Of a DNA stretch of 64,000 nt, positions 5,756-43,035 are shown piece after piece; position 1 is the first letter of the stretch, and the number at the start of each line of letters is the position of its first letter. The stretch comes from Halosimplex halophilum. Lineage in GTDB: Archaea > Halobacteriota > Halobacteria > Halobacteriales > Haloarculaceae. The translations under genes were made by a program, and so were the position numbers. The DNA lies in NCBI RefSeq assembly GCF_004698125.1, contig NZ_ML214297.1, forward strand, positions 1,710,891 to 1,774,890, given 5' to 3'. The notes below the pieces were generated by a model that had not been told where the DNA came from, ran no database searches, and worked only from the letters and a program-made list of their open reading frames with translations.

Positions 5756-7258
5756 ATGGACATCCCGGACCTCGTCAAGGGGGCACTCGACGGCGAGGAG
5801 ATCCAGGCCGGCGTCTCGCTCGGCGACGAGGACGCGGTCTGTCTCACACCGACGCGAACGCTCGTCTACCGCGGCGAAGGCCTGCTCAGCGACGAGACGG
5901 TCGAGGAGTACTCCCACGACATCGAGCAGCTGGCGGTCTCGGAGGGGCGCCGCAAGACGAAGTTCACGATGCAGTACATCGACGGCACCGAGTCGTTCAC
6001 GGTCCCGGCCAACCGCGGCGAGAAGGTGCTCGAACTGTTCCTCGAGGGCGTGCTCAGGCTCGACGGCGTCATCGGGGACCGCGAGTCGCTGGCCGGCGTC
6101 TACCGGTTCAGCGAACTCACGCTCATCATCGCCGAGGGGCGGCTGATCAAACACATCGGTAGCCAGGTCTGGTCCGAGGACTACGAGGTCTACGCCTACG
6201 ACGACGTGACCGGTCTCGAGTTCGAGCGCGCCAGCGTCGCAACGAGCATCGCGCTCTCGGTCGAGGGTCGTCCCCAGCGCATCAAGGTGCCCAACGACAA
6301 GGCGCCCGTCGTCCGCCAGACGCTCGAAGGGGCGCTGTTCGACTACTACGACGTGGCGAACGTCGAGGAACTCAATCGCGTCGTCGGGCCGGAGACGGAC
6401 GCGGGCGGCGTCGAACCCGCGGACGAGGACACCGGAGACGGCTTCTCGTTCGGCGACGACTTCGACCCGCTGGTCAGCGACGAGGCGGACCTCGCCGAGT
6501 CCGTCGAGGGCGAGGAGCGACTCGCCGACGACCCGGGGGCGGGACAGCCCCCGCGACAGCCGGGCGGCCAGCCGGAGGGCCAGCCCGGCGGCCGGTCCGA
6601 CGACCCGGCGACCGGTCGGGCCGCCGACGCCGCGGACGGCCAGACGGCCGATGCGGGAGGCGACACCGCCGACCCGGCGACCGGCGGGTCCAGCGAGCCG
6701 GTCGCCCGCTCCGGAGCGGGCTCCGGCGGGAGTGAGGACCGGGAGACCGAAACGGAGGCGACGGCCGACCGGCAGCCCGATGCGCAGCAGGCCGACACCG
6801 GACGGGGAGAGACACAGCAGGCGGACACCCGTCGGTCGGACACCCAGCAGGCCGACACCGCGGGGACGACCGACCGCCGGGGCGGGACGGACGATACCGC
6901 TGGTCGGACGAGCGCGACCGACGGGACGGCCGACTCGACAGCGGGCGCGGACGCGTCGGCCGACCGCACCGTCGACGACACGGCGGACACCACGGTCGAC
7001 GACACCGCCGACCGCACCGTCGACGACACCGCGGACACCACGGCTACCGAGTCGGGCGGCACCTCGACCGCGGGCGCGTCCGCGGCGTCGGCGAGCGGGA
7101 CCGGCGGGGAGGTCGAGCCCGCGCCGATCACCCGCGAGGAGTTCGAGGCGATGGCCGAGCGGCTGGAGGAGCTGACCGACGCCGTCGACCGGCAGAACGA
7201 ACTGCTCAAGCGCCAGCACCGCGCGCTCAAGCGACTGGTCCAGCAGGACTCCGAGTAG
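5756..7258 (+). CDS. PH-like domain protein with Asp/Thr-rich repeat linker and C-terminal coiled coil (DUF7115-like)
   Basis: A 500-residue acidic protein. Residues 1-205 are a compact alpha/beta region of two related halves (LTPTRTLVYRGEGLLSDETVEEYS; LIIAEGRLIKHIGSQVWSEDYEVYAYDDVTGLEFE) resembling the bacterial PH-like fold and haloarchaeal DUF7115; that name is from memory. Residues 215-450 are disordered Gly/Pro/Asp/Thr-rich sequence. It contains repeated QQADT units and a tandem repeat built on TVDDTADTT/TVDDTADRT. Residues 455-500 form a heptad-like coiled coil ending RALKRLVQQDSE. ATG at 5756 is preferred because GGATTTATACAC (5722-5733) is a well-spaced TATA box. Function unknown; the layout suggests an adaptor or oligomeric scaffold. 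Confidence 0.8.
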   Translation: MDIPDLVKGALDGEEIQAGVSLGDEDAVCLTPTRTLVYRGEGLLSDETVEEYSHDIEQLAVSEGRRKTKFTMQYIDGTESFTVPANRGEKVLELFLEGVLRLDGVIGDRESLAGVYRFSELTLIIAEGRLIKHIGSQVWSEDYEVYAYDDVTGLEFERASVATSIALSVEGRPQRIKVPNDKAPVVRQTLEGALFDYYDVANVEELNRVVGPETDAGGVEPADEDTGDGFSFGDDFDPLVSDEADLAESVEGEERLADDPGAGQPPRQPGGQPEGQPGGRSDDPATGRAADAADGQTADAGGDTADPATGGSSEPVARSGAGSGGSEDRETETEATADRQPDAQQADTGRGETQQADTRRSDTQQADTAGTTDRRGGTDDTAGRTSATDGTADSTAGADASADRTVDDTADTTVDDTADRTVDDTADTTATESGGTSTAGASAASASGTGGEVEPAPITREEFEAMAERLEELTDAVDRQNELLKRQHRALKRLVQQDSE

Positions 7259-7307
7259 CCCGGCAGCCCCCGAGTGGCGCACGACGCTCCGACGGACCTG
7301 AAGTCGG

Positions 7308-7667
7308 TCAGTCCTCGCGGCCGGTGACCTTCCTGATGCACGAGGAACCGAAGGGTCCGTGTTCGCCGGCGTCGAACTCGATGAAGTAGCCGGTGGTGAT
7401 GCCGGCGCCGCAGCGCTGGCAGGTGAACTCCCCGTCCTTGCTGACCACGTCGCCGCCCTCGAAGCTGACGTAGTCGCCGGTCGTCGGGACGACGGTGTCG
7501 CCCTCGCGGTCGATGATCCCCCGGCGCTCGGCGGTTTCGAGGATCTCGCGGGTGACCGCCGGGTCGCTGGTCACCGTCTCGATGCGGTCGACGGCCTCGG
7601 CCAGCGACAGCTCGGCGTGTTCGAGGTTGGCGAGCAGTTCGACGCCGAGTTCGACGCGGTCGTCCAC
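7308..7667 (-). CDS. haloarchaeal DUF5830-like protein with zinc-ribbon-like Cys pair
   Basis: A 119-residue protein. The N-terminal half is helical (DRVELGVELLANLEHAELSLAEAVDRIETV) and looks like a winged-helix segment. The C-terminal half contains CQRCG and a later single Cys in FGSSCIRKVTG, suggesting metal binding with an incomplete classical set. GTG at 7667 is taken as start because conserved-looking sequence begins there (VDDRVELG) and the longer frame to 7742 adds a basic, low-quality extension. The family assignment (DUF5830) is from memory. A role in regulation is possible but unproven. Divergent from the TVP38 gene. Confidence 0.7.
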   Translation of the reverse strand: MDDRVELGVELLANLEHAELSLAEAVDRIETVTSDPAVTREILETAERRGIIDREGDTVVPTTGDYVSFEGGDVVSKDGEFTCQRCGAGITTGYFIEFDAGEHGPFGSSCIRKVTGRED

Positions 7668-7776
7668 GCTCGCCGGTGGGGTCCCAGGGGACCTAAGCGT
7701 TTCCGGGTCCGGCCGCGAGCGCCCGCGGTGTGCGTCGACCACAAGACTTGTGCCGGCGGGGACTGGACGGCGAACG

Positions 7777-8451
7777 ATGGCAGTCAGTCGAGCGACGCGC
7801 CGGCAGCTTGGGGGGTTCGCGACCCTGGCCGTCGCGCTCGCGGCCGGTGCCGTGGTCTTCTCGCCGGCCGCGGTGCTGGAGTCGCTCGTCGCGCTCTCGG
7901 GGGACCCCTGGCGCTTTCTCGCCGTGCTCGCCGTCCTCTACGTCGCCCGGCCGCTGGTCCTGTGGCCGGTCAGCCTGCTCTCGCTGACGGTCGGGTACGT
8001 CTACGGCGTGGCGGTCGGGATCCCCGTCGCCGCCGCGGGGCTCGCCGTCTCCACGGCGACGCCGTTCCTGGTCGCCCGTCGGTTCCGGACCGACGAGGGG
8101 ATCCTCGGGCGGACCGCCGGCGTCGGCGACCGCGTGGTCGCGGCGACCGGCGGCTTCCGCGGGCTCGTGGCCGCGCGGCTGGCCCCGATCCCCTCGGACG
8201 TGATCTCCTCGGCCGCCGGGCTCTCGGATATCTCCCCGCGGACGTACCTGGCGGGGACGCTCGTCGGCGAGACGCCGTGGATCGTCGGCGCCGTCGTCGC
8301 CGGCGCGTCGATGCACACGCTCTCGGTCGAGGGGCTGGACCAGGGGATCGCGCTGGTCGCCGGCGCGACGGCCGTCTCCGGACTCCTGCTCGCCGGGCCG
8401 ACCTACCGGCTGGTCCGCGAGCGCTACGACCTCGGCGTCGACGTTCAGTAG
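7777..8451 (+). CDS. TVP38/TMEM64 (VTT-domain) membrane protein
   Basis: A 224-residue membrane protein with about five hydrophobic segments. The middle holds the VTT signature region: RPLVLWPVSLLSLTVGYVYG, the Gly-rich VAVGIPVAAAGLAVSTATPFLVARRF, then ARLAPIPSDVISSAAGLSDISPRTYLAGTLVG. These correspond to the paired re-entrant hairpins of DedA/TVP38 proteins, which in other organisms act as lipid scramblases or membrane-homeostasis proteins. The start at ATG 7777 follows directly after the divergent promoter region. The 3' end overlaps the convergent zinc-finger gene by 7 bp. Confidence 0.85.
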   Translation: MAVSRATRRQLGGFATLAVALAAGAVVFSPAAVLESLVALSGDPWRFLAVLAVLYVARPLVLWPVSLLSLTVGYVYGVAVGIPVAAAGLAVSTATPFLVARRFRTDEGILGRTAGVGDRVVAATGGFRGLVAARLAPIPSDVISSAAGLSDISPRTYLAGTLVGETPWIVGAVVAGASMHTLSVEGLDQGIALVAGATAVSGLLLAGPTYRLVRERYDLGVDVQ

Positions 8452-8564
8452 AAGGTGTCCGCGCAGTCGTAGACCACGCCGTGTTCCGGGCAGACGTACT
8501 TGCAGTGGCGGTGGGTCATCGGCCGCTCGCAGACCGGACAGGGCCGGCCGCCGGCGTCGCTCAT
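8445..8564 (-). CDS. 39-aa zinc-finger micro-protein
   Basis: The protein starts MSDAGGRPCPVC and reads on through HCKYVCPEHGVVYDCADTFY. It has two Cys pairs (CPVC and CKYVC), a further Cys in YDCAD and three His residues, consistent with one zinc site. It resembles the small CPxCG-type zinc-finger proteins common in haloarchaea (HVO_2523-like, from memory). ATG at 8564 is used because the upstream extension in frame is basic and improbable. The stop overlaps the TVP38 stop region by 7 bp in convergent orientation. Members of this class are often regulators of biofilm or motility, which is not testable here. Confidence 0.72.
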   Translation of the reverse strand: MSDAGGRPCPVCERPMTHRHCKYVCPEHGVVYDCADTFY

Positions 8565-29589: not shown

Positions 29590-29940
29590 GGCGCGCGCTG
29601 TCGCGCGCTTTCATGCGCGCGACGTAGCCGCGCGAAGTCTTCTCGAACTCGTGAGAGAAGGCTCGTCAGAGCTTGTCTCTGACGGTGGATGAGCCATCGC
29701 AGGCCGCAGGCCGAGAAGTGCAATCGGCTGGGGAGGCTCGTGGCCGTCTGCGGTGCTGTGCGGGGCGGGCGGTGCGGCCGCGGTGCCGTGCAGTCCTGGC
29801 GGACTGAAAGGGCGAGACGCGCTCGCGTTTATGTAGTCGCCTGAGCGACCCCTATCCGAAGCGGCTCTCGGCCGCGAGGATATGTCGCTCAGCGACCGCG
29901 AGCGCGGCGAGGGCTTTCATCGCCCGCTGTCTCCTGCAGT
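29590..29940 (-). repeat. dispersed structured repeat, copy A (351 bp)
   Basis: Read on the minus strand from 29940, this closely matches the plus strand at 42747-43035. Shared blocks include GAAAGCCCTCGCCGCGCTCG, GGTCGCTGAGCG, CGCTCAGGCGACT, CCCTTTCAGTCCGCCAGGAC, GCGGCCGCACC and GCGCGGCTAC. An outer stem GTCGCTGAGCG/CGCTCAGGCGAC encloses an inner stem TATCC...GGATA whose neighbouring pairs differ between copies yet still pair. Copy A has an extra segment of roughly 60 bp with two small hairpins near its distal end. No plausible protein is encoded. Together with 29562-29589 and 29941-29983 it fills the gap after the aldo/keto reductase. Confidence 0.85.
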
Positions 29941-29983
29941 CGCTTCTCCAGCGCGCGAAATCACCCACCGATCGCGCTCAAGC

Positions 29984-42337: not shown

Positions 42338-42410
42338 GCCCGGGTGGTGTAGTGGCCCATCATACGACCCTGTCACGGTCGTGACGCGGGTTCAAATCCC
42401 GCCTCGGGCG
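42338..42410 (+). tRNA. tRNA-Asp (GTC)
   Basis: The acceptor arms GCCCGGG/CTCGGGC pair (one G-T), with discriminator G. The D-arm contains AGTGGCCCATCAT. The anticodon stem CGACC/GGTCG encloses CTGTCAC with anticodon GTC. The T-arm is GCGGG-TTCAAAT-CCCGC. No intron. Its last 22 bases are repeated exactly 148 bp downstream. Confidence 0.95.
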
Positions 42411-42412
42411 CT

Positions 42413-42467
42413 TCTCCGATTTCACCGACGCGGAGTTTCATCTCCGCGTCTCTCTCGAAATCGGAGA
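42413..42467 (+). other. nested perfect hairpin immediately downstream of tRNA-Asp
   Basis: The outer 11-bp arms TCTCCGATTTC (42413-42423) and 42457-42467 enclose a 9-bp inner stem GACGCGGAG (42427-42435) with 42442-42450 and loop TTTCAT. It begins 3 nt after the tRNA and could be a terminator, processing signal or recombination structure. The rest of 42468-42536 contains an inverted copy of the T-arm (GGATTTGAACC at 42479-42489). Confidence 0.7.
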
Positions 42468-42536
42468 GCAGCAGTACTGGATTTGAACCCTATCAGTCGC
42501 GCGCAGCGAGTGCAACGAGCGAGCACGTCTGATTCC

Positions 42537-42558
42537 GGTTCAAATCCCGCCTCGGGCG
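42537..42558 (+). repeat. 22-bp duplicate of the tRNA-Asp 3' end
   Basis: The 22 bases here are identical to 42389-42410, from GGTTCAAATCCC to the discriminator base. Flanks differ on both sides. The direct repeat brackets 126 bp without a gene, containing the nested hairpin and an inverted T-arm fragment. It has the form of an integration scar or minimal inserted element at a tRNA attachment site. Confidence 0.75.
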
Positions 42559-42698
42559 TCTTCTGTCGATATCGACTCGCCAGCGGTCGCGCCATCTCAA
42601 GTGCCGGAAGAGATTGTCGCACTCGATCCGACTCGACCGCACTCGACGGTGAGCGCTGAACGCCCTCGACGCGCTCAGCAGTGACCGCGACTACAACT

Positions 42699-42733
42699 GA
42701 CAGCAGGCGATGAAAGCCCTCACCGCGCTCGCT
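42699..42733 (+). repeat. partial copy of the dispersed repeat 5' block
   Basis: GACAGCAGGCGATGAAAGCC and the following CTCACCGCGCTCGCT repeat, with two changes, the start of copy B at 42756-42790. The offset is 57 bp. A more degenerate version (CTGAACGCCCTCGACGCGCTC) is at 42656-42676. These are truncated tandem fragments of the same element. Confidence 0.6.
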
Positions 42734-42746
42734 ACCTGGAGTCTCT

Positions 42747-43035
42747 ACTGCAGGGGACAGCAGGCGCTGAAAGCCCTCGCCGCGCTCGCGGTCGCTGAGC
42801 GGGATATCCGCGCTCTCCGCACCGCCCGCGCGGATAGTGGCCCGCTCAGGCGACTCCCGGCGCGAGCGCGCCTCGCCCTTTCAGTCCGCCAGGACAGCAC
42901 AGTATCGCGGCCGCACCACCCACCCCGCACAACACCGCAGACAGCCACATACCTCCCCAACCGATTCGCTCCTGGCGTCGCTCATCCCTCGCGCGGCTAC
43001 GGTCGCGCGCATGAAAGCGCGCTCCAGCGCGCGCC
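42747..43035 (+). repeat. dispersed structured repeat, copy B (about 289 bp)
   Basis: This matches the minus strand of 29590-29940 throughout, but lacks the segment of roughly 60 bp carried there near the distal end. The inner stem is TATCCGCGC/GCGCGGATA, where copy A has different bases that also pair. It lies between the tRNA-Asp 3'-end duplicate and a membrane-protein gene, within a 727-bp stretch (42411-43137) that has no credible gene. Frames crossing it are basic and Arg/Ser-rich. Confidence 0.85.

Follow-up and report, generated by a model that had tools for sequence, protein, structure and literature searches.

Two structured repeats of Halosimplex halophilum, here called copies A and B, belong to a family of dispersed, non-coding, MITE/REPIN-like small repeats whose mobility is supported by the arrangement of their sequences, and the hairpin core of this family is homologous to a cis element of haloarchaeal plasmids that is linked there to a gene for an OB-fold (SSB/RPA-like) protein. 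We put at about even the chances that this MITE-like family carries a plasmid single-strand site, amplified in chromosomes, as its core, a function that is putative. Both copies lie in the window, i.e., the whole 64,000-nucleotide stretch of DNA that was analyzed, and a sequence-only reading had offered a non-coding RNA, a MITE-like mobile element or a recombination site for the repeat. The MITE-like option was supported, the non-coding RNA was disfavoured, the recombination site is close to the plasmid-site reading, and the link to the SSB-like gene on conjugative plasmids was found beyond the window.

The match reported by that reading, between the minus strand of 29590–29940 and the plus strand of 42747–43035, is real: copy A (29590–29960, minus) aligned at 82% over 233 bp to plus 42736–42966 and at 94% over 47 bp to plus 42989–43035. 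All of the proposed pairings of the approximately 110 nt structure (GTCGCTGAGCG/CGCTCAGGCGAC, the two differing inner stems, GAAAG/CTTTC and CGCGCTCGCG/CGCGAGCGCG) were found, forming a single stem in each copy, and the folds were more stable than those of shuffled sequences (z = -4.4 and -3.3 for copies A and B, respectively). The copies differ by an extra module of about 50–85 nt, consisting of cassette hairpins, which is present in copy A and missing from copy B, and by one additional upstream 57-bp arm unit in copy B (Table 1).

Table 1. Features of the two repeat copies in the window (positions counted from its first letter)
Feature	Positions	Strand	Evidence
Copy A, whole element	29590..29960	-	
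Copy A, hairpin core, ~123 nt	29801..29923	-	covariance model R1, 137.5 bits
Copy A, 5' foot arm GAAAGCCCTCGCCGCGCTCGC	29898..29918	-	
Copy A, stem P1, 5' side GGTCGCTGAGCG	29886..29897	-	
Copy A, stem P1, 3' side CGCTCAGGCGAC	29836..29847	-	
Copy A, 3' foot arm CGCGAGCGCGTCTCGCCCTTTCAG	29804..29827	-	
Copy A, mini-hairpin P2 CAGTCC-GCCA-GGACTG	29791..29806	-	sequence
Copy A, C/A-rich unpaired segment ending in CCTCCCCAGCCGATT	29722..29790	-	
Copy A, exchangeable cassette hairpins, missing from copy B	29636..29720	-	
Copy A, tail hairpin CGCGCGCATGAAAGCGCGC..AGCGCGCGCC	29590..29621	-	
Copy B, whole element	42687..43035	+	
Copy B, weak further upstream arm	42600-42676	+	
Copy B, extra tandem 57-bp arm unit 5' of core, 5' arm without partner	42687..42732	+	
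Copy B, hairpin core, ~124 nt	42764..42887	+	covariance model R1, 124.2 bits
Copy B, 5' foot arm GAAAGCCCTCGCCGCGCTCGC	42769..42789	+	
Copy B, stem P1, 5' side	42790..42801	+	
Copy B, stem P1, 3' side	42843..42854	+	
Copy B, 3' foot arm CGCGAGCGCGCCTCGCCCTTTCAG	42861..42884	+	
Copy B, mini-hairpin P2 (GTCC-GCCA-GGAC)	42882..42895	+	
Copy B, C/A-rich segment ending in CCTCCCCAACCGATT	42896..42966	+	
Copy B, tail hairpin	43004..43035	+	

Between the rpo genes and site B (42338–42560), the window also contains a tRNA-Asp, behind which its own 3' end recurs as a satellite of palindromic units GGATTTGAACC...GGTTCAAATCCCGCCTCGGGCG with hairpins between them, in roughly 1–4 units depending on the Halosimplex species. 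RpoA1 of the genome under study is 91% identical to that of Halosimplex salinum YPL4. The rpo genes of other genomes gave two separate observations: RpoA'' of one Halosimplex genome (G002, locus L169, ~5800–8478) is broken by ~1.3 kb within the gene, possibly an intein, and an RpoA1 match with an in-frame TAG was found in a Halosimplex assembly with 10% estimated contamination (G005:C1:622127-625138).

A DNA search of the same genome returned at least 40 copies with E-values from 1e-182 to 1e-45 (308 candidates), thus the match of A and B is not due to chance, and five elements were present in five 20-kb stretches (100 kb) picked regardless of the repeat. With the covariance model R1, 150 candidates were scored in this genome and at least 89 cores recovered, the figure for seven other Halosimplex genomes being 15–97 and all of these counts being lower bounds, while the structured core was detected in 86 of the 292 sampled Halobacteria genomes and in 39 of 77 genera; several genomes outside Halosimplex are saturated with it. 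The further copies that the earlier reading had suggested looking for are therefore present in quantity. The elements are short, non-coding and multi-copy, in line with the definition of MITEs. All 46 copies considered were intergenic, and their orientation to the genes was without bias (29:17 and 24:22, p = 0.10 and 0.88). A protein-coding origin was rejected, since overlapping open frames are not shared among copies and the indels and module swaps of the family break the frame, in agreement with the remark that no open frame explains the repeat. Searching phages with the core gave no match, IMG/VR held no exact match to it, and no description of this hairpin repeat was found in the literature searched, which covered few subscription journals.

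Halosimplex elements start with one to four tandem units of ~57 bp, each ending in the arm GAAAGCCCTCGGCGCGCTCGC, and continue with the hairpin core and the mini-hairpin CAGTCC-GCCA-GGACTG. Next comes a C/A-rich stretch with CCTCCCCAGCC at its end, then a variable number of exchangeable hairpin cassettes, from none to several, and last a tail hairpin that closes with AGCGCGCGCC. In the core (~110 nt), GAAAGCCCTCG / CTCGCCCTTTC form a foot that contains a conserved internal loop of mismatches; a long stem follows, and the apical hairpin on top is exchangeable and occurs in interchangeable types.

The plasmid search recovered the core from Haloarcula, Halovenus, Halorussus, Haladaptatus and other records. 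Most of the matching Haloarcula records have it at a single place, in most of them about 0.5–0.6 kb upstream of a gene of 320–410 aa on the same strand; in GH36, the annotated gene downstream of the core differs from this one. The C-terminal part of the product is an OB fold resembling replication factor A/SSB, a match to known SSB/RPA families at the domain level and below curated cut-offs, and a PDB sequence search with the protein found nothing. Members of the gene family are present in 196 of the 292 haloarchaeal genomes. Among 40 retrieved loci, 26 had a core 0.4–0.9 kb upstream on the same strand, spanning at least four families (f1, f4, f6, f12) and two apical types; none of the 40 had a core placed elsewhere at E ≤ 0.01, some had no detectable core, and the type-2 model added a few further loci with a core. 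A Haladaptatus plasmid has a homologue with 31% identity downstream of its core. In the genome under study, an OB-fold gene of this kind lies at C2:317982; a core precedes it at a distance of ~1.7 kb, and close by is a member of a VirD4/HerA-like cluster, a type of gene present in only about 5 of 20 such neighbourhoods. The neighbours of the OB-fold gene module often include a DUF6735 gene along with small hypothetical genes that are conserved, and some loci have primase-associated (NF038197) and primase-like genes (L310, L312–L318, L321).

On pNG500 and on plasmid 4 of CBA1115 the genes for a pilin, a conjugal transfer protein and a VirD4-like protein follow one another, and the OB-fold gene and its core face them. 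The origins of pNG500 are predicted at its orc/cdc6 genes (PMC3528665), and the orc1/cdc6 genes are about 17 and 62 kb away from the core on this plasmid and about 21 kb away on that of CBA1115. An Orc1/Cdc6 replication origin was consequently rejected, as no such gene is adjacent and the nearest is ~17 kb away (pNG500), and so was a Rep-Arvir rolling-circle origin, these being ~22-nt hairpins downstream of the rep gene (PMC13107129), unlike the core. A large hairpin that precedes an SSB-type gene, lies beside conjugation genes and is set apart from the vegetative origins is most simply accounted for as a single-strand site.

We propose that the core would work as folded DNA, most likely single-stranded, during conjugative or replicative transfer, and that on plasmids it may serve either as an oriT-like nick or termination site or, in the manner of Frpo/ssi, as a promoter or priming site on single strands for the ssb-type gene. 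What is seen of such sites here is a core that precedes the ssb-type gene, shares its strand and heads the presumed leading region, and we regard it as quite possible, somewhat short of an even chance, that the core is a site of one of these kinds, active in the single-stranded state of the plasmid. The elements in chromosomes would have arisen from the plasmid site by capture and amplification, spread by plasmid or host machinery that acts on the hairpin ends and afterwards homogenized by gene conversion.

The signs of mobility come mostly from elements organized in pairs. Inverted pairs of convergent cores, 270–670 bp in total, are found in other genera; their ends share a ACCGCAAACACCTCGAAAGCCCTCG-type motif and, in several genera, the conserved form 'ACCGCRAACA..GAAAGCCC'. 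Halosimplex has a second dispersed family, in which type-2 cores (model R2) form inverted pairs of ~283 bp; these have the sharp ends ACAGCGTGAAAGCCCC / ACCGCRAACAGCGTGAAAGCCCC and frequently adjoin short tandem repeats with ACCGC in them (L332–L351; e.g., G000:C2:837981-838246). Copies A and B, by comparison with the inverted pairs elsewhere, have one core and a divergent tail. No target-site duplication was seen at the ends of the pairs from other genera or of the second Halosimplex family. The MITE-like option of the sequence-only reading is supported by the many copies and by the inverted pairs with conserved ends.

These observations leave room for a serious though unlikely alternative, that the family is an ordinary MITE-like non-autonomous transposon with ends cut by a haloarchaeal DDE or tyrosine transposase, of which plasmids merely acquired a copy. 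The inverted pairs with their conserved ends, the high copy numbers and the intergenic placement would all be expected of it, but besides the missing target duplications no autonomous copy was found among the loci retrieved, and the one candidate island, a 13-kb interval between inverted cores in G008, holds glycosyltransferases and flippases instead of an autonomous element. Nor does an ordinary MITE fit with the Haloarcula plasmids, where in most records a lone copy keeps a fixed distance to one and the same gene, or with the abundance of type-1 copies in Halosimplex, which are without a second inverted core. No transposase or relaxase could be tied to the element, and a Y1 transposase was rejected as partner, the only Y1_Tnp of the genome under study being encoded at a locus (L192) without a core. 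The G008 interval is of interest in its own right, as a 13-kb polysaccharide gene cluster (L232, G008:C1:1091441-1104594) enclosed by two inverted, 88%-identical hairpin cores, and may be a cassette that can be inverted or exchanged.

Of seven Halosimplex genomes, six have a copy at site A and four have one at site B, which makes these insertions old; the comparison of both sites for empty counterparts gave no clean empty site, the sequences being too diverged for exact junctions. Nearly all copies in the 64 kb are common to the seven genomes, and recent movement is thus rare or absent. Orthologous copies were 87.1% and 87.4% alike, compared with 88.5% for paralogues within a genome, the apical module differs between species at one and the same site, and two copies in another genus combine identical stretches with diverged ones. 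Orthologues being no more alike than paralogues, the copies evolve in concert, presumably by gene conversion.

Stable positions across species, concerted evolution, dispersal between genes and the many plasmids with one core could also be read as marks of an immobile chromosomal architecture or partition repeat, bound by a nucleoid, SMC or ParB-like protein. We hold this to be improbable, because the G003 matches listed show no strand polarity, copy numbers vary widely between genomes, most of the sampled haloarchaea are without the core, and the ParA genes of pNG500 are far from it.

The pairing data bear on whether the hairpin is maintained as DNA or as RNA. Among 54 Halosimplex-type copies, 16 of the 34 pairs differ on both sides (4.4 expected; none of 500 shuffles reached 16), and in 84 distinct sequences from other genera and plasmids this rises to 30 of 34 (17.4 expected; again 0/500), with a covariation score of 0.373 compared with 0.102 for shuffled alignments and ≤ 0.047 for slid structures. 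The 84 sequences were collected afterwards and apart from the model set and are hence an independent alignment; it was fitted to the model, which inflates the percentage of paired positions and does not create compensatory types. The covariation read from just two copies was therefore genuine, and selection on the structure is supported. Template switching between the arms at the DNA level could explain part of the apparent covariation without selection, but the foot retains a near-invariant mismatched loop (CCCTCG opposite CTCGCC) flanked by two conserved helices, which such switching should have erased, making it unlikely as the sole means of upkeep.

G.T accounted for 14 of 2833 cells in the core pairs (0.5%), as opposed to 85 of 986 stem pairs (8.6%) in a control of 46 distinct haloarchaeal tRNAs from the same loci. 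A.C mismatches in the core were at least as common as G.T on both alignments; ARAGORN tallies allowed pairs only, so the zero A.C of the tRNA control is by construction. Moreover, the 5' arm alone is duplicated in tandem upstream of the core, and Rfam found two tRNAs and nothing else above the gathering score in the window. Few G.T pairs, the duplication of a single arm, the exclusively intergenic copies and their lack of orientation bias together indicate selection on a DNA hairpin, and the constraint looks to be at the level of DNA and not of RNA. A dispersed structured RNA, i.e., small RNAs or UTR elements made from many loci, is thereby very improbable, as the points in its favour, the strong covariation and a TATA-like TTTATAAA that most G104 elements carry at their outer ends some 30 bp ahead of the core, are set against the scarcity of G.T relative to tRNAs with A.C no rarer, the unbiased orientation, the tandem copies of one arm alone, the lack of an Rfam family, and sense and antisense cores that converge within one element. 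Of the former reading, selection on structure is supported and the non-coding RNA is disfavoured. The TTTATAAA-like octamers themselves occur ~30 bp before the core on both sides, at most outer ends of the G104 elements (L203, L218, L233–L239), and are either archaeal TATA boxes or an insertion-site motif.

For haloarchaeal conjugative transfer the genes are known, but we know of no defined cis site. That the core is this missing site in archaeal conjugative plasmids (an oriT, or a promoter or priming site on single strands), with some 100 or more chromosomal copies in Halosimplex and relatives, seems to us rather unlikely in this full form; if true, the conjugation machinery could mobilize, prime or rearrange chromosomal DNA at the copies, and these may contribute to the high recombination rates of haloarchaea. 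The plasmid core, conserved and linked to an SSB-type gene, is a defined sequence that lends itself to deletion in laboratory strains of Haloarcula. The family further calls for caution in RNA discovery pipelines, because strong covariation marks a DNA hairpin here and not an RNA, and a covariance model is now supplied for an abundant intergenic repeat of haloarchaea.

REPINs are inverted doublets of REP sequences, which are dispersed intergenic hairpins present in more than 100 copies per genome. Like REP/REPIN, the hairpin family consists of dispersed intergenic hairpins, single or in inverted doublets, with a related single copy beside a gene, but its core is ~110 nt long compared with the ~25 nt of REP. 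REP sequences are associated with RAYT transposases (PMC2817692), whereas the gene linked here encodes an OB-fold SSB-like protein and not a Y1 transposase. In bacteria, the leading regions of plasmids that conjugate have Frpo/ssi single-strand promoters or priming sites (PMC11541004, which cites Masai and Arai 1997). The core resembles these in being a large DNA hairpin 5' of an ssb-type gene, on the same strand, near conjugation genes and on many plasmids; it differs in being archaeal, in its distance of 0.4–0.9 kb and in being amplified in chromosomes as well, and would be at most a putative site of this kind. SMR-A/B of Haloquadratum walsbyi are transposase-free repeats with inverted ends, no target duplication and tens of copies, SMR-A being ~110 bp long (PMC3119063). 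The hairpin family is equally haloarchaeal, without a transposase, with prominent inverted ends, with tens of copies and with no target duplication seen. Unlike SMR-A, which inserts into PATE/IS605 palindromes, its elements are found in plain intergenic DNA, and unlike the SMRs, with which they were compared by description and not by sequence, they measure 270–670 bp and have a covarying core and a link to a plasmid gene (PMC3119063). PATEs, with IS605-type ends, are haloarchaeal as well; they are non-autonomous, have their palindromes in subterminal position and show no target duplication (PMC3119063), and the present elements are likewise non-autonomous and palindromic with no target duplication seen; in place of the left and right hairpins of the IS605 type they have two inverted hairpin ends, and no TnpA/TnpB relative was found at the element. 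As the family has no RAYT linked to it and its parent gene is a different one, it was counted in neither SMR nor REP/REPIN; by structure, the SMRs of Haloquadratum and the REP/REPIN systems are its closest counterparts.
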